Of a DNA stretch of 64,000 bases, positions 30,290 through 61,452 are shown one piece after another. Where the stretch lies: NCBI GenBank assembly GCA_964036195.1, contig OZ038459.1, positions 1,671,206 to 1,735,205 on the forward strand, read 5' to 3'. This stretch comes from Sphaerolaimus hirsutus (lineage: Eukaryota > Nematoda > Chromadorea > Monhysterida > Sphaerolaimidae). Made by a program: the position numbers and the translations under genes. Each line of letters opens with the position of its first letter. Within the stretch, counting starts at the first letter, position 1. The notes beneath the pieces were generated by a model that worked only from the letters and a program-made list of their open reading frames with translations, did no database searches and was not told the origin of the DNA.

Positions 30290-30701
30290 TTAGGCCGTGT
30301 TTACACGGATTTTTTGTGATGACTCAACATCACTAAAAAGTTCAATAAATTGAGTAAAAAAGTTCCAAATTCATTATAAAAAGTGGTCAATTGTAGATTT
30401 AACCTAGGCTAATATACATGTCAAATTGTAGAATCGTGTTTGTAGCTTAGGCCTATCCACGTTTGAAAAGAATTTGCTTTTGTTGGACAGTCTCCCGACA
30501 GCCAGCGACAACAGAAAAATTGTTTCAAACGTATATAGGTCTAAGCTACAAGCACAATACTGCGATTTGACATGTATATTCGCCTAGGTTGAATCTACAA
30601 TTGACCACTTTTTCTCATGAATTTGGAACTTTTTTACTAAATTTATTGAACTTTTAAGTGATGTTGAGTTGTCACAAAAACTCCGTGTAAACATGGCCTT
30701 A
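30290..30701. mobile_element. 412-bp TIR element (GGCCGTGTTTACACGG ends)
   Basis: AGGCCGTGTTTACACGGA... TGATGACTCAACATCACT at left is inverted at right as AGTGATGTTGAGTTGTCAC...CCGTGTAAACATGGCCT. The arms share TCAATTGTAGATT...CCTAGG and GTATATAGGTCTAAGC segments, so most of the element folds back. Confidence 0.85.
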
Positions 30702-31435: not shown

Positions 31436-31578
31436 GGGGGCAGTCCCAGACCCTGTAAAATACCCTGTCAAGTGTCAAATGTCATGCAAAGTGTGAAAAG
31501 TCATGTAAAATGCCCTGCAAAATGGCAAACGTACGTTGACATTCTACGGGGCATTTTACAGTTTCTGGGATAGGCACC
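31436..31578. mobile_element. Harbinger-like MITE with CAG TSD
   Basis: GGGGGCAGTCCCAGACCCTG at left, CAGTTTCTGGGATAGGCACC at right; CAG is duplicated at the edges. The interior repeats TGTCAAATGTCATGCAAAGTG and ATGTAAAATGCCCTG. Confidence 0.85.
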
Positions 31579-37750: not shown

Positions 37751-38467
37751 TGCTACTGCGACTGGAGCACATGCAATTGTACCACAGTGGATTCTTTATG
37801 CTGTCATTTTTAGGTTCAGCGATATGCTCGAATACAGTGCCCGTGGTCAGTCCTGCACCCTGGCAAACGTTAAATGCAACGTAAATTGTCGCATAATTTG
37901 TCAAACGTCATGTGAAATATGTGATGCCCCGCTCCATTATTTTTCGGACATAATGCATTTTAAATGACATGTGATAAATGTTTTCCGACATTTTGCATGG
38001 TTTGATACTGGTTCCAGCGTGGTCAACTTCTGAAAAAATCTAATTTAGTGCCATGCCATGCTTTGAAGTTTATTTTATCACCGCGCATTTAAGTCGCTTT
38101 TCTTTTTTTCCCTTTCTATCGCTTGTTCATTGAAATTTCGGTCACACCTGTCTTCACATCTTATTAGCCTGTCAAACTGTCATTTGTAGTGTTTAGCTAG
38201 GTGTAAAAATCTGGGTACCTATCTAGGTAGATTGTGTAAAAATGTTCCGATTGAAAATCAGAATGTAAATTGTTAGATTAGAGACGAAATTTACCTACCC
38301 ACAATGAAAAAAATGAGATAAGAATGTCATCTAAACTAGTGCAGGCAGTACCGTCCATTTAAATTCCCTGCTCGAATTGAGTACCACTTGCTGATGTAAT
38401 GGCGCCATTTTTCCCTGGCGCTATCGCGAATGGGGGCCATCACTAATTCTGCCAGTGATCCCAAAGT

Positions 38468-38694
38468 ATTGTCGCTGCACACACTAGTTTACTAACGGTA
38501 AACTAAGAATCTGGTAAACTCATTTTTCAGATTCTGAGCGCATATGAGTTTACCGGAATGTGTTATTTATGATCTCTGTCAACTGTAGTTGACGAACAGC
38601 TCATTCCGGTAAACTCAGATGCGCTCAGAAGCTGACAAATGAGTTTACCAAATTCTTAGTTTACCATTAGTAAACTAGTGTGTGCAGCGACAAT
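38468..38694. repeat. Near-perfect fold-back MITE
   Basis: ATTGTCGCTGCACACACTAG... and ...CTAGTGTGTGCAGCGACAAT are exact inverses; ACGGTAAACTAAGAAT and ATTCTTAGTTTACCATTAG continue the symmetry. Relatives at 21645-21861 and, decayed, about 62250-62375. Confidence 0.85.
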
Positions 38695-39475
38695 AAAGTA
38701 AAACAATATTCTGTCAAATCTTTTTTTCTAAAGAAAACATCTTTGTTTGGGTTTTGTATTTCTTTTCAAGGTAGATTAACGAAATTTTGCACCAGCTCTG
38801 GCGCCATTTGTCGGAATGGCGCCAAAGTGTTCCCGCCATTTGGAATGGCGCCACGGGTCAATTTTTTTGGCGTTTTTCCAACACTACAGCTACGCTGTGA
38901 AAAAGTACACGGTATTCTGAACAAGCCAATTTTATATTTTATTATAGCTATTCTTTTATTGTTTTTGTTCATGTTCAATTATTCCCTGTACATCTGTGTC
39001 TCTACTTATATTATTGTCATAATATCGCCATTTTTGACATAAATTGTGATTACGAATGTTAAAAATGGTCGTTAGAAAGTTTACGATCTGTGTTCTCAAC
39101 TTCAATATCGTGCGTCCACATTGAATTCAACTCCAAAGGCACTGATATTTATTTTTTCCGAAACTTTTGCATCGTTTTAAGATCAAGTATTCCCAGTTGA
39201 TCTGATCGGTCATTGCAGATAAATTTTATAGTCGTTTTTTTGAATACCTACCTATGTCATTTCCGATATACACCTACAATGAAATCTATTCATGTTGAAT
39301 GGAAGAGAACACTGTGACATACATACATTTCAATAACAGTTTTTCCCAACACGTTGCATTTTCAGACCAAACTCAAACAATCACACCAACCGCATTCCAA
39401 TCAAAAATGGTTTAAATTCCACAAACTTCAAATCACTTCTAAATCTAAATATTCTAAAACTAAACATAAACCAAA

Positions 39476-42600: not shown

Positions 42601-45600
42601 AAAACATATATGTCGTTTTATAAAGAAAATGTTAAACATTGAGGATTAGCCCTAGTAACAGTTCAAAAATAATGGGCCTACCAAAAATCGGTTCCATGTC
42701 CAAAATAAACGCCCAAATTCCCTTCAGGCATGCGAGCAACTTCTCAACTCGCTGAATGCGCACATTATTTCGATATTAGCCAACCGATCAGAGCAAAAAT
42801 TCGCTCACGATCTTGCTAATCACATTCGATTTCATTCCGACCGAAGGGTGGCCAGTATTGTTTTCGTGGACGAAAATGGCAATGTTCCAACTTTTGATCA
42901 GTTGCACTCGGTCACTGTGAGTGTGTTGGAACCGCGCCAATTGAGTAGGTGAGTTTGGGATTTTGTGTGGGCGGAGTTTTGTGGGTGATTTTTTGGTGGC
43001 GTGTGCTGTTGGCAATATGTACACTGTTGGGTGTGGGTGGGTTTACTCGGCGGACCGCAAAGTTACCATAATTTAATGAATAAAGTATTGTGATAAATTT
43101 AGTAATAAATTATTCCATAGTAAACACGAAATATTATGATGAAAAACTGTATAATTCTTGGTTCTTTATTCAGATGTGTTATGGTAAATTGTTTTCGGAT
43201 AAATAGAAGCCGATGGGACTAGGGTTCAGATGGGATATTGGGTTTTCGGAATCTAAACCTCAACCTTCACGTTTTTAATGTGGCAAAACATCGACCTTGA
43301 CTCGCAGGGTTCTACAAAAACATTCAAATGGCAAAAAGTTGTTCATAAACTTGCCATTGAATGACGCAACCTACACAGAAAAGCAGTTGGTTGAATTAAT
43401 GTCACAAAATGATAATCAACATGAAGTAGTGATGTTGCAGCGAGTGGTGGCGCCTTATGATGATTTTAAAGAGTATTTTCTGGGCGTTTTGAAGAGTAAT
43501 TATGCCGCCTATTCTTTATTGGCTGGCTATATGCAGCAGGTGAGTTTCGGGGTGTTTGGACGACTTAACAGAATTAATTTCGACGGATAAATGGCGCCGG
43601 CTTTCCATCATTTCTACCTTATCAGTGATTTTTTCAGTCACCCCACCAGTAAGAATAATATTGTTTTTTTGGAACATCAGGCAAATTCAGATAACTCAAG
43701 TTTTTTTGTTTTTATATCGGAAATAATTGGCCTCATATGTGGTTCTAATTTTCATGACAGTAGCGATGTAAAAGCTCTAGAAAAATTGCGCCATTCACAA
43801 TTTGGCGCCAGAAAAGTGAGCGCCAGGCGCCAATGGCGCCATGGCCCCATTCGATCAGCTCATGACAGCTTTACGGACACTTCGAAAAACCCGACTTGAA
43901 TCTGTACAACCCCTGTGTACAATTTGCCAACCCCCCCCCCCCCTCATAGACGTACAACTGCACGCTGGTGGGCACGTCGGGCTTCACTCCGTGCGGCGAG
44001 CTGACTGCCGCCACCATGGGCTCCGACTACGCGCCCAGCGAGCACGTGCACGGAGTTTTGCTGGGAACCTATGCGGTGGCCATTTTGGGCAGCCTTTTGG
44101 CTAAGAGCAATGAGCTTTTGTTGAAATGGTTAGGTTTTTTGGGGTTGCTGCTCGGTCTTGGGTTGATGTTCTGTACTCTAATTGTTCTGTACTCTGACAA
44201 ATGTCAAATCTTGTAAAAATAAAGTTTGAAATGCTCACTTAAATTTTCTTTATGCATTTTTTGCCAGGCCTTTTCAACTTTACATGACATTAAACAAATT
44301 TACCAACCATTCGAAGGGTGCGTGGTTGTTGGAGGCTTGACACTTTAAAAAAAATTTTTGGCAGCTGTGATTTATCAAATGTACTTATCTAAACAAAAAC
44401 CTTCTGGAAGTTTTGTGGCTTTGTGACATGGTCTTTGGCAGTAAGTAATTGTCAACTTCCCCCCAATTCATATTCGATGACTGTCACACTTTGTCACTCA
44501 ACATTTTTGCACCCTTGTTGACGGTAATAATTATCTATTTTATTTAAAAGAACACTGTTTTAAAAATTACAGCAAAGTGCCCATGGAGGGAGACTGTATC
44601 AACGTTGTGGAAGATCTTTTCGCCAAAGGGATGATAGATTACAAATTCAGTCAATATGACCCCGCCCCATTTGAGGATTTTCATTTGCGGTTCAGAAAAA
44701 AGCAGAGCATCATTTCTGACAGGCCATATTTTATGGCTGATTCGCTCGTGATCTATGGCTATCATTTGTCACAAAGTGTACAAGTTTCCAAATTGAACAA
44801 GGTTTGAAAAACATTTTTCCCCAAGATTTTCTATTATTAGATAAATAACAGAGTTTTTCACTATTGTAAAATACCAAAATGTGCATGCGTGAGTTTTTAT
44901 TGGCACACTGCCAACGTGAGACATAAATAACTCCGCGCGCATAGTGTCAAGTCACTGGATTATCCAAAAATATCCTCCAGGTATTGACTTACTCTACTGG
45001 ATTCGAGCCATACTTGAACACTAACAGTCTGGGTACAAACTGGGCCACGGCATGCTCAATAACCGATGAATCTGGCATGTTGCCAACTTTGTGTCGCCAC
45101 TGCGATTCTACAATACACAGCGAATCTATGAGTGGGGCATTGGCGCCACGGTTTGAATTGGTACAAGCTGATAATGCTGAAAATCGGATGTATTTTTTGG
45201 GTGTGTCTTATTTTTGATTTGATCGTGACAGTTTAAGTTTTTGCGTTTTTTATATTTCTTCTATTTATCTGGATGGAATGTTGTTATCAATGGTTTACGT
45301 TACTGTCAATATACTTTACAACATTCAGCTATGGATGTTTAATTTCGCTTTTTGGACAGCAAATGATATGTAACCATTGGAAATACACTAGTTCTCGATC
45401 TCGAACTGGATACGCTGTATTTAAATAAATTTAATTTTCCAAAAAGCAAAAATGTTGTTCTCATGAGCAACTCGCCTGCCAATTCTCGCCACATTGAATA
45501 ATAAAAATCGTGGTAATAAAAATAAATACCGTATTTCCTCGATTTACCCCCCCCCATGAATTAACCCCCCCCCCCTCGAAATACCCCCAGGTGTTATTGG

Positions 45601-48600
45601 GCTGGGGAAAAAATAAACCCCCCCTCGAAATACCCCCGTCTGGAATTATGTACATGATGTATGCAGTGTACATTATGTACATATTGGTCGCAGTTTGCAT
45701 CGCAGCTACACGTCATGTACTAGTTTGTGTAGCGATAGACGTTGATATGTCCAAATATACCCTACTTGGACACGTTGATTACCAGTTTTGTGTATATAAA
45801 AGCGTACTCTTTACTATGAATTTCGTGAAAATTTTTGACGAAATAATAACCCCCCCCCCCCTCGAAATACCCCCCTCAAAATTTCCACTCTGAAAAAATA
45901 AACCCCCTGGGGGTATTTCGAGGAAATACGGTAGAATAAAATCCCTCACAGGCGTATTCGATCTATCGGGCGCGAACTGCGACGGGGCGTCAACTGCGGC
46001 CGACGCGATCCTGCCGCCGTTGGCGCTGCTGCACACCTTAAACACGGCCGCGAATCGATTCCCACACTTGGGCATCCCGACCGGAGAAATCGGGCTGGTG
46101 CCACTCTCAGACCATGTAAAATGCCGTGTAAAATGTCAAGTGTCATGCAAAGTGTCGAAAGTCATGTAAAATGCACGGTAAAATGGCAAACGTATGTTTG
46201 TCATTTTGCAGGGCATTTTACATGACTTTTGACACTTTGCATGAAATTTGGCATTTTACAGGACATTTTACAGGGTCTGGGAGTGCTCCCTGATAATCGC
46301 TGACGCCTGCGGCAGTGCGGCCGCCGCGGCGCGCGCTTATAGCGTGCTCTGCTTGAATACAAGCGCCACTTGCGTTAATGTTGATAGCAGGTTGATAAGG
46401 CATGATGATGTGGTTTTGGCCGCTGTGGATGGCAAGTGGCAGTCTTTGGCTTCTGTTGGGTGAGTTGTTATTTGATATTTCGCGCTTCAACTCGCGGTTA
46501 AGTTGAGTTTGATGCTTTGAATCCACTGTTTCACTTTCAATTTGTTTCGATGTAAGTATTCATTTAATTGACCATGGAAACTGATATCACACTTGACAGA
46601 AATTCCAAACAGACAACATGCAAAAAAAATTTCCTCCAAAAACGCACAACAATCATGCACAGTCTGTTGGCCGGCGCCGACCCCGGTGCCAAGCACATCA
46701 TCACGCCCGACGCCATTTCGAGTTTCGGACAGACCACAACAGCTGGCAAAGTGCCAAAATTAGAAGAAACTCAACTATTTTCACTTTCTGCCGACACTGA
46801 AGCTAAAGCGAGGGCGCTTACCAGTATGCTGGTGCATTATAAATGGAGCTGGGTATCCGTTGTTTTCGACGGTAAAAATAAGGAAAGTGTGGAGTTATTG
46901 GAGAAGTTTGAGGTCGGTGGGAGTTGAATTATTTATTTGGCACTCATTTATGAGTTCCATTAGCAATGATATTTAACAAAAATATTTTTTAATTAATCTC
47001 AGGCGTTGCTACCCGATCAACGTATTTGTATAGCGGACATTTTCGATTCCAGTCACCAAGAAGCAAAAATCCCAATTGAACCATCATCTCCCATCATAAT
47101 CTATCTCAGTGACAAGTCATTTATGCAAACAGAACTTGGCACAGAGCCAAATAGATTGCACATAGTGCTGGCCGATGTGCCGCCAGCCAAACAACCAAAC
47201 AAAAATATTTTGCTGCTTCGTGAAGTTGCATCAGTGGCTGCGCACTCAGATTTTGACAACTGGTTGAATCAATTAAATGTGGAAAATATAGGCCAGATGT
47301 GGTTCACCAAATTTTTCGAACAGCGAATGCAGTGCTACGCTAGTGCTGGTGAGTTATACGGACTGTGCTGGGGGCAATCTCAAGTCTTGTAAAATGCCCT
47401 GTAAAATGTCAAATGTCATGCAAAGTGTCAAAAGGCATGTAAAATGCCCTGCAAAATGGCAACTCGGTTGCCAGATTGCGGGGCAGTTTACATGACCTTT
47501 AACAGTTTGCATGACATTTGACATTTTACAGGGCATTTTACAGGGTCTGGTATTGGCACCTGTACAAAGGGTGTTAGTACCGTATTTTGATGAAAAAATC
47601 ACGAGGCAAAGACTATGTATCAAATTAAGCCATAGTGAACGCCAAAATAAAAAAAAGCTCTTTTATCGCTTGTTAGGATTTAATTAAGTGTGCGCTTAAT
47701 GGACTATAGGTATATGGAAATGTTTGGCGTTTCAATTCGTTTTACCATATCCTTTTGAATAAGTCTTTTGTAGCTTTTCAAGCAGTTTTACAATGACTTA
47801 TTCAAGGGGGCTTAAATAAATACTTTTACAGTTTGTTTGAATATGTTAGGTACCCACACACTATGAATCAAGTACCCTTTCAATTATTATTTATTAATAA
47901 AGCTATGCAGCGCATGACTCAATAGCCTACTCATTTTTCCCGTCATATTCCTTACACAATGATCTTTTCCACGGGGGCTCAATTCAAGCCGGGGCTCTAA
48001 TTCAACAACACAAATCACGCATAGGTAACTTCCCTTTACATTGGCAGAAAATCGTGGCATTTACGTACGTCCGTGCGCGGGGGTGCACTTGGACTGGTCA
48101 TCAGAGGGGGCGGCGCTGCGACGGGCGCACAGGTGGATCGACACTGTGGAGGCAGCCCTGTTTGCAGTCGATGCGGCTAGGAGGTAAGTTTGTGGTCGAC
48201 TGGGGTCGACTTTTCGATTTTGATATTCAATATTGCATAATTTTTGAAACTCGATATTTGATATCGATATCGATATGGACAGTCGATATCAATATCGACA
48301 CTCGGTATCGACATGGACACTCAATATCGATATAGACACTCGATATCGATATGGACAGTCGATATCGATATTGATATTCAATATTTAATAGTAACATGGT
48401 CGATATCCAACATATACTCTGCCGACATGATACTCTGCCCTCGCACTCATTTATGTCTCACGTTGGAAGCGTGCCAATGATGCTTAAGCATGCGATTTTT
48501 GTGTAAAAGATGAAGAAAATCATTGTTGTGATTGAGTTAACGTTTAGTGTTATGACAGCGATGACTTTTTTCAATTTTTTTATGAAAATCGCTCGCGTAA

Positions 48601-49920: not shown

Positions 49921-51054
49921 CAGAGTTGTTAAAATACCGGTATTTTTGGAAAGCGTAAGCGTAAGCGTAAATACACTTTCCCAATTTTGAGTATGGATAC
50001 TGTAAGCGTAAGGTATTTTTAAAATACCTAGGAAAGCGTAAAATAAAGCGTAAGCGTAAATTTTTTTTAAGAGAGTGCTCCTGGCATTGAGCATCGTAAA
50101 ATACTCTTGCTTTCACATTTAGATCAATGTATCACAGATTCTGTCCATTTTTGCTCAGTTAATTCTTTTCAAAACAAGATCTCGGTGACATTTTTCGGTC
50201 GTTCATTTGGTAGTCTGCCCTCGTAGCAATTCATGAGCAGCGACACTTATATCAGATTCTAACTCGGATTTCGTGCTGTCGACGTCAACAACATCGTCGT
50301 CGGAATCCATTTTCTGTCCCAAAATCACTAATCTAACGCCACGGTATTGCTTGACGACACAATATTGACCAGACATAAATATTGGTGCCACACACGCTGG
50401 ATATCGACTGTTTCGGTGTCAACTCGATTTTAGTTCAATTTAGGTCGCAGGACAATTTTCAAGTGCACGTGCGGCAAAGTCGAAGATAAATTTATATGGA
50501 CAGGTGCATTTGAACATGGGTTCGCAGCCCATAAACGCAAAATTTATGAAAAACTGTTGGCCCAGTTGACATCCGGATGTCAACTGGTCCAACAGTTTTT
50601 CATAAATTTTTAGTTTATCGGCTGCGAAATTATGTTCAAAAGCACATGACTATATAAATTCCTCTTAGACTTTGCCGCACGTTCACTAAAAATCGTCCTG
50701 CGACCTAAATTGAACTAAAATCGAGTTGACACCGAAACAGTTGACATCCAGCGTGTGTGGTGCCTTTGCTACACAATTTATACATGTGCCGCTATTTCCA
50801 GTGCAATACTACGCACACGCAGTCTCTATTTTTTTGTATTTTTTCATTTTCTTTTTTGTAGTTTTACACTTTTTCAAAAGCGTAAAACTGGGTCATGTGG
50901 AAAGCTTTTTTACGCTTTTAGTATCCGGGTAATTTGGCCAGGAAAGCGTAACAAAGCGTAAGGGTATTTTACGAAAGCGTAAGCGTAAGCGTAAGTATAA
51001 ATACCCATTTACCCGGGTATTTCGGGTAAGCGTAAATACGCTTTCGCAACTCTG
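49921..51054. mobile_element. GTAAGCG-rich element with nested palindrome
   Basis: CAGAGTTGTTAAAATACCGG at left and CGCTTTCGCAACTCTG at right; GCGTAAGCGTAA repeated near both ends. The palindrome 50384-50765 has inserted in the middle. A 62-codon minus-strand frame (50203-50391) with DSDDDVVDVDST is noted but not supported as a gene. Confidence 0.8.
50384..50765. repeat. 382-bp near-perfect palindrome
   Basis: GGTGCCACACACGCTGGATA... and ...ATCCAGCGTGTGTGGTGCC are inverse; TGTTTCGGTGTCAACTCGAT matches ATCGAGTTGACACCGAAACA. The centre is a second inverted repeat around AACTGTTGGCCCAGTTGACATCC. GGxxCC-type ends with CACACAC resemble 28986-29238. Confidence 0.85.
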
Positions 51055-51724: not shown

Positions 51725-51910
51725 GGGGGCAGTTCCAGACCATGTAAAGCGTAAAATGTAATGTAAAATGTCATGCAAAATGTCATGCAAAGTTGTGATT
51801 GTCATGACAAATGTAAAGTGTCAATTGTCATGCAAAGGTCAGTAATAATTTTTTTTTTATATTGATAATTGACACATTATTTCTCACTTTACAGGGTCTG
51901 GGACTGCCCC
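51725..51910. mobile_element. Harbinger-like MITE
   Basis: GGGGGCAGTTCCAGACCATG at left, CAGGGTCTGGGACTGCCCC at right. The left flank is CAG-like, the right is CAT, so the target duplication is imperfect. Confidence 0.8.
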
Positions 51911-60905: not shown

Positions 60906-61452
60906 TACCATATTTCCTCGATACCGCCAGGGTTCTTATTTTTTCGCCAGTAAATTTAGAGGTGGAGGGTTAATTCGAGGGGGCTTATTCGAGGAGGGGG
61001 GTTATAATTTCGCCAAAAATTTTCGTTGAGTATCGTAGTAACTTATAGGCTTTTACATACCCAAAACTGCTATTAAATTATCCAAACATAATAGATTTGG
61101 ACATTATCCTTATTCCTGACTTATCATTTTTTCGAGGGGGTATGTTCCTCGGATCGCTCAGACCAGGTGCCGGTTCCGCAAGTGGAAAAGTTAAGAGTTA
61201 AAAGTTAAGAGTTGAGTAAAATGATAAATGATAAGTTAAGAGTAAAGTTAAAAGTTAAGAGTTGAGTAAAATCATTTGTCGTTTTACTCAACTCTTAACT
61301 CTTAACTTTACCTATAACTTGTCATTTGTCATTTTACTCAACTCTTAACTTTTAACTGTTAACTTTTCCACTTGCGGAACTGGCCCCTGGGGTATTTTGG
61401 GGGGGGGGGGGGTAATTTAAGGGGGAGCGTGTATTTGGAGGAAATACGGTAT
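60906..61452. mobile_element. ACCGTATTTCC element with nested palindromic MITE
   Basis: TACCATATTTCCTCGATACC at left, GGAGGAAATACGGTATA at right. The inner MITE 61166-61386 interrupts it. Confidence 0.75.
61166..61386. mobile_element. Nested palindromic MITE (GGTGCCGGTTCCGCA ends)
   Basis: GGTGCCGGTTCCGCAAGTGG then AAAAGTTAAGAGTTAAAAGT at left, inverted at right as CTTAACTTTTAACT and CCACTTGCGGAACTGGCCCC. Arms consist of GTTAAGAGTTGAGTAAAATGA repeats. Confidence 0.85.

Follow-up and report, generated by a model that had tools for sequence, protein, structure and literature searches.

A 192-bp inverted-repeat element that splits one exon within the DNA analysed here (a stretch of 64,000 nucleotides, hereafter the window) is probably an introner copy, that is, a non-autonomous MITE of the NuwaI type (PIF/Harbinger) that inserts a ready-made spliceosomal intron. 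Introner-like behaviour is well supported for the family by its anatomy, orientation, reading frame and acceptor-side bias, since protein domains are restored by removal of the copies, Pfam matches are biased to the donor strand, CAG is in excess on the acceptor side and hybrid copies are nearly all CTG...CAG. An initial annotation had called the element introner-like and one of many, and the case for the family is now stronger than was claimed there. The copy in the window is most likely spliced out, the intron beginning at 46098 and having 46283 (GT-AG) or 46292 (GT-TG) as the foremost candidates for its 3' end.

Results

Anatomy and footprint of the window copy

Almost the whole element consists of two inverted arms (46102-46191 and 46196-46285), which are 87% complementary. 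It lies between two CTG triplets (Table 1), as noted on first reading; the assignment to Harbinger-type MITEs made at that time holds, but the length given, 194 bp, has to be corrected to 192 bp. The element plus one CTG measures 195 bp, and when both are taken out, the translation gives the expected uninterrupted run GEIGLIIADACGS, within the wider joined run ...PTGEIGLIIADACGS... Without splicing, the frame meets a stop after 23 codons, inside the element. GT is found at 46098-46099 and AG at 46282-46283, and an intron of 46098-46283 keeps the frame with nine extra bases left in the exon (GEIGL-CSL-IIADACGS), in agreement with the initial annotation on all these points.

The boundaries of the VFT-like exon, read by eye, are CCCTCACAG/GC and GG/GTGAGT. 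After chaining of the exons by eye, Pfam returned ANF_receptor (PF01094) at E=5.5e-5 and 22.8 bits, below the gathering cut-off of 25.4 bits, and the match is confined to the exon downstream of the insertion; the class C domain proposed for this coding segment is thus recovered sub-threshold and on one side of the element. A protein search with the VFT chain gave no homologous protein at E<=0.01, and a genome search for an empty-site paralogue of the exon returned only the exon itself. Because the receptor identity is weak and neither a homologous protein nor a second copy of the exon was found in these searches, the junction in this gene is judged from the frame alone.

Table 1. Position of the element, its flanking triplets, candidate introns and relatives in the window
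Feature	Position	Strand	Basis or remark
VFT-like gene resembling class C receptors, coding exon(s) split by the element	~45952..46459	+	Open frame FDLSGANC...GEIGL / IIADACGS...LASVG
Target-site duplication on the left: CTG, a Leu codon in phase 0	46095..46097	+	Window sequence; CWG duplications in sister copies
Probable introner copy (NuwaI-like MITE) of 192 bp, with the donor end leading (GTGCCA...TGCTCC)	46098..46289	+	
Right target-site duplication CTG (would be an AG acceptor if it were CAG)	46290..46292	+	Window sequence; sister copies
Intron model of the initial annotation, GT-AG, would add C-S-L	46098..46283	+	In frame; acceptor variant depleted in CTG copies
Exact-excision intron model, GT-TG, zero footprint	46098..46292	+	Restores GEIGLIIADACGS; non-canonical dinucleotide
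Inner intron model, CAT/GTAAAA...TTTTACAG/GG, would exonise 87 bases in frame	46166..46273	+	
Second copy, opposite orientation, CTG/CTG, asymmetric ends	47371..47559	-	22 bp inside an intron starting at 47349 (read by eye)
Third copy, shortened, asymmetric ends, CAG/CAG	31437..31577	-	
Relative with GGGG at both ends and no GT donor end	51726..51910	.	

Diverged or tandem relatives were seen near 13.5, 14.6, 15.8, 16.1, 16.9, 20.7-21.0 and 33 kb of the window, and the relative with GGGG at both ends is a candidate for the ancestral symmetric form. A different element with the inverted ends TACCGTATTTCCTCGA occupies 45527-45933, directly upstream of the VFT-like exon, and the same end is seen again at 848/1275 and 52087. 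Five more long inverted repeats (205-706, 30292-30699, 50388-50760, 61163-61390 and 38467-38695), with arms 86-96% complementary, differ from the element in position and length; MITE-like structures are thus abundant in the window. Comparison of the window with Rfam gave nothing at the gathering score.

The family across the genome

The genome searched comprises 348 Mb in 762 contigs, the window being located on a 25.6-Mb contig; it is called animal-type here on the basis of the genes encountered. With the element as query, 85 matches at E<=0.001 were obtained (40 of 6422 candidates scored), and the 26-base left end was found exactly at 1525 places, the reversed control at none, so that the family is not a product of chance. 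A set of 40 near-full copies (27 from L001-L030 after omission of the duplicates L008, L020 and L023, and 13 more) ranges from 189 to 196 bp, with a mean pairwise identity of 91%. When oriented, these copies mostly start with GTGCCA, and the reverse complement of the other end mostly reads GGGGCA; 30 of the copies are flanked by identical CWG triplets. An asymmetric-end score of at least 2 was given by 96 of the 100 distinct elements collected from fetched sequence and the window, most of these loci having been chosen by their GTGCCA end.

NuwaI, a group of the PHIS/PIF-Harbinger superfamily restricted to animals in the survey that described it, is characterised there by CWG target duplication, ends that usually start with GGG, terminal inverted repeats of 12-61 bp and mobilisation by a DDE transposase together with a Myb/SANT protein (PMC4482050). 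The CWG duplication is present here: of the 100 elements, 64 have identical CWG triplets at their two borders, 12 are flanked by CTG...CAG and one by CAG...CTG. One terminus starts with GGGG and the other with GTG, and the inverted arms are about 90 bp long. By its CWG duplication and GGG end the family fits the NuwaI type of PIF/Harbinger elements, from which it differs in that its 192-bp MITE is made up almost completely of inverted arms and has GTG at one end.

The Harbinger-type transposase domain PF13359 gave 163 matches in the genome. More than 100 places were listed with nearly equal score, L096 being among this family, which suggests recent activity. For the 192-bp element itself no transposase was detected. 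Of the 15 PF13359 matches listed on contig C1, one lies less than 5 kb from an exact element end (at a distance of about 3.3 kb) among the ends listed, as read by eye; this does not exceed what the density of ends predicts, and no link between the two was found. The possibility that the element is an intron of the PF13359 transposase was rejected for the one copy L096, where two short stop-bearing gaps with ordinary-looking borders have no convincing similarity to the element.

Insertions in coding sequence

Flanks of individual copies were joined without the element and one triplet, and the resulting long frames were compared with Pfam, a match being accepted at E<=0.01 when it crossed the junction. 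In a first set picked by eye, junction-crossing matches were obtained for 10 of 18 sense ORFs: VWD (L003), HSP90 (L006), P4-ATPase C-terminal (L010), kinase (L013), ligand-gated channel (L015), Tmemb_cc2 (L016), GT92 (L021), 7tm_1 (L026), PAN (L033) and RRM (L039). No Pfam match was given by the joined frames of L004, L005, L019, L025, L030, L035 and L041, and L040 carries TPR matches on each side of the junction and none across it. On the antisense strand of this set, the junction was crossed in one of two frames (AMP-binding, L002) and in none of 27 further frames.

A second set was defined by rule: along contig C1, the 50 exact left ends with the lowest positions were taken (L044-L093). Of these, 4 lacked a right end, 4 exceeded 260 bp and 3 were duplicates, which left 39. 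Frames with at least 15 codons on each side numbered 32 in sense and 33 in antisense, and 30 of each were sent. The junction was crossed in 4 of the 30 sense frames (LRR in L050, chondroitin GalNAc transferase in L071, VWD in L072, marginal at E=0.0096, and zinc finger in L091) and in 0 of the 30 antisense frames (p=0.11 for this set alone). When the 67 loci are pooled (37 of the first set, i.e., 40 less 3 duplicates, and 30 of the second), the matches are 14/67 in sense vs 1/67 in antisense (p=0.0005), with unsent loci (19 sense and 8 antisense frames of the 37) taken as misses and part of the sense set picked by eye. A codon-usage score was unable to tell the strands apart.

Outside this count, the joined frames of AMPK gamma (L079), P4-ATPase (L010) and TRAP1 (L006) align to PDB chains with no gap at the junction, and a recognised frame in L058 matches Oscp1 in Pfam at E=5e-17; another recognised-looking frame, at the CTG...CAG locus L060, gave no Pfam match. 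Domains restored by removal of the element and one triplet include those of TRAP1, AMPK gamma, OSCP1, P4-ATPase, kinase, an RRM protein and a GPCR. The reverse-strand locus L039 contains two copies, of 192 and 298 bp and both CTG/CTG, in one coding segment for the RRM protein, the second 93 bases after the first; the RRM segment scores 30.9 bits with both copies left out vs 21.6 with one left out. As judged from genomic sequence, the copies appear to interrupt exons of many unrelated genes and would behave as introns in RNA.

CAG and CTG as flanking triplets

With gene duplicates included and a shift of at most 2 bases permitted for the right triplet, the 100 elements consist of 36 CTG/CTG, 28 CAG/CAG, 12 CTG...CAG, one CAG...CTG and 23 others. 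The hybrids are biased 12:1 toward CTG...CAG (p=0.003), which is the expectation if AG is gained at the acceptor side. Exact ends of all copies genome-wide, coding and other pooled, show CAG and CTG in 1760 and 1185 cases on the acceptor side (59.8% CAG), compared with 2183 and 1900 on the donor side, i.e., preceding the left end (53.5%; p=1.8e-7). Elements with GGGG at both ends, it is reasoned, would add equally to both acceptor classes and only dilute the CAG excess. Splice sites at fixed positions, that is, a GTGCCA-type end together with acceptor-side CAG, are present in the 28 CAG/CAG and 12 CTG...CAG elements.

The coding sense insertions number 18 (16 with a junction-crossing match, L040 with TPR on both sides, and the window copy) and comprise seven CTG/CTG, four CTG...CAG, six CAG/CAG and one ATG...CAG. 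CAG is thus on the acceptor side in 11 of the 18, for which a zero-footprint GT-AG intron is predicted; the seven CTG/CTG insertions, the window copy among them, count against the introner reading. The ATG...CAG case is the ligand-gated channel locus L015, which implies a target other than CWG or a change in the exon-side triplet after insertion. Two similar PAN-domain loci, L022 and L033, share an insertion; their exon-side triplets are CCG and CAG, respectively, and the acceptor-side triplet is CAG in each.

Possible splicing of CTG copies

At least four in-frame intron models can be drawn for the window copy. The intron 46098-46283 of the initial annotation is confirmed to be in frame but is not unique, three other models being also in frame. 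Among CTG/CTG copies, the coding ones and others with open frames, three possible ways out are seen: an AG that precedes the end by six bases (window copy, L019 and L092); a right end shorter by one C, by which the TTTTACAG acceptor is brought into frame (L017 and L079); and an inner GTAAAA...TTTTACAG intron (window copy, L005, L010, L019, L028, L039 and L058). Inner pairs are the main ones in L010, the first copy of L039 and L058, and in L013 and L071 there is a poor donor only (GTCATG or GTCAAA). The shortened CTG copies in L017 and L079 (AMPK gamma) stand in coding frames, and such shortened CTG ends number 139 genome-wide.

Removal as a GT-AG intron of 46098-46283, by which Cys-Ser-Leu would be added to the protein, is a tentative reading. 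In its favour are the dinucleotides at both ends, the intact frame with the gain of 9 bases, and the recurrence of the same AG in L019 and L092, but the AG is preceded by no clear pyrimidine tract, TTTTACAG stands 10 bases upstream of it, and three residues would enter what we presume to be a core strand of class C receptors. In addition, genome-wide the AG-bearing right-end variant, GGGAG, is carried by 389/1185 CTG copies compared with 690/1760 CAG copies (p=4e-4), a depletion in CTG copies which weakens this part of the initial proposal. As a general rule for CTG copies the GGGAG acceptor is not supported by these counts; it may work in the window copy.

Alternatively, CTG copies would be GT-TG introns, with the duplicated CTG as 3' splice site (46098-46292 in the window) and zero footprint, a possibility to be held with some doubt. 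TG acceptors are rare in animals, which counts against it. Exact excision restores the frame in all seven coding CTG/CTG copies, including L013 and L071 with their poor pairs, and these copies are not clearly younger: their mean divergence is 5.6%, compared with 3.6% for coding CAG/CAG, 6.3% for coding CTG...CAG and 6.4% for other CTG/CTG copies. On the other hand, the 12:1 bias of hybrids suggests that CTG works less well than CAG, and all seven coding CTG/CTG sites are in phase 0, where about 60% would be expected (p=0.03), a restriction that exact excision would not impose. A precedent is offered by the tunicate Fritillaria borealis, whose non-GT/AG introns end in a triplet type that also precedes them (PMC13326754).

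It is unlikely that the insertion stays unspliced, the MITE either breaking the gene or being polymorphic, within a pseudogene or on one haplotype. Such a state agrees with CTG/CTG triplets that supply no AG at the duplication, and with a VFT gene that is poorly conserved and has no relative to check against, but the flanking frames are still open, and neither the orientation bias of coding copies nor a directional gain of AG is expected from it. Least probable is splicing from an inner GTAAAA donor to a TTTTACAG acceptor (intron 46166-46273 or 46166-46261), by which part of the element would become protein: stop-free in-frame pairs occur in the seven loci listed above for this type, and all seven coding CTG/CTG copies are in phase 0, the phase examined, in which the left arm is open, but about 29 residues would be added within conserved domains and the pair is lost in L013, where a stop closes the left arm, and in L071, which is internally shortened.

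Discussion

Proposed mode of intron gain

A Harbinger-type transposase would insert the element at CWG with duplication of the triplet, and such duplications are observed in most copies. As one terminal repeat reads GTGCCA in place of GGGGCA, C(A/T)G/GTGCCA would serve as the 5' splice site, the departure of this end from the GGG of NuwaI being what sets a GT donor beside the duplicated G. Compared with the consensus common in animals, GTGCCA makes a weak donor. At the other end, ...CTGCCCC, the duplicated triplet comes next, so that CAG supplies the acceptor AG; the intron would then end in CCCCAG, and the element and one triplet would be removed exactly, consistent with the frames observed. 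A CAG copy on the donor strand, CAG/GTGCCA...TGCCCCCAG/, is accordingly predicted to be a full GT-AG intron that leaves the gene unchanged on removal. A CTG target gives no AG, and the observed bias would be accounted for if the acceptor-side triplet later changed from T to A, as seems to have happened in some copies. The right-end AG variant, being depleted in CTG copies, offers them no general way out.

Comparison with known introner systems

The 2022 survey reports introners from 175 of the 3325 genomes examined; of the animals and land plants covered, only two groups had them, and both are animal groups. Some of the families described bring one splice site with them and obtain the other through the duplication, and some leave extra codons (PMC9860276). 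The present family resembles the introners of that survey, as described there, in its MITE-like structure with target-site duplication and terminal inverted repeats, a GT inside the element, an AG from the duplicated target and an mRNA length that would usually be unchanged, but differs in its thousands of copies, its animal-type genome and a target with two states, CAG and CTG, only the first of which supplies AG (PMC9860276). With the introner elements of Amoebophrya it shares direct repeats (3-5 bp) that overlap the exon-intron borders, inverted repeats and the absence of internal transposase genes; most introns there are reported to be non-canonical with variable borders, unlike the CAG copies here, which fit canonical GT-AG (PMC7789003). 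In F. borealis, also an animal, the triplet type upstream of the donor likewise recurs as the last three intron bases, but the commonest termini of its non-canonical introns are AG/AC and AG/AT, whereas those here are GT-AG, or GT-TG if that reading holds (PMC13326754). A literature search outside subscription papers found no report on Harbinger MITEs in connection with intron gain and splice sites.

Implications

Intron gain is a long-standing question, and this family is a likely example of the creation of introns by transposons. One element in one genome has landed thousands of times, nearly equally at CAG, which supplies AG, and at CTG, which does not. This natural experiment bears on which genic insertions survive, how a missing splice site arises and how far weak or non-canonical sites are tolerated. 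If the introner reading is true, an animal-type genome and a NuwaI/Harbinger element join the known sources of introners. A further and rather doubtful proposal is that an animal spliceosome accepts GT-TG introns of this introner, CTG copies being tolerated at once and later converted to GT-AG by one T-to-A change in the triplet on the acceptor side. If the GT-TG reading is true, sense insertions at either form of CWG would be spliced exactly, and the family would represent a genome-wide record of ongoing splice-site evolution.
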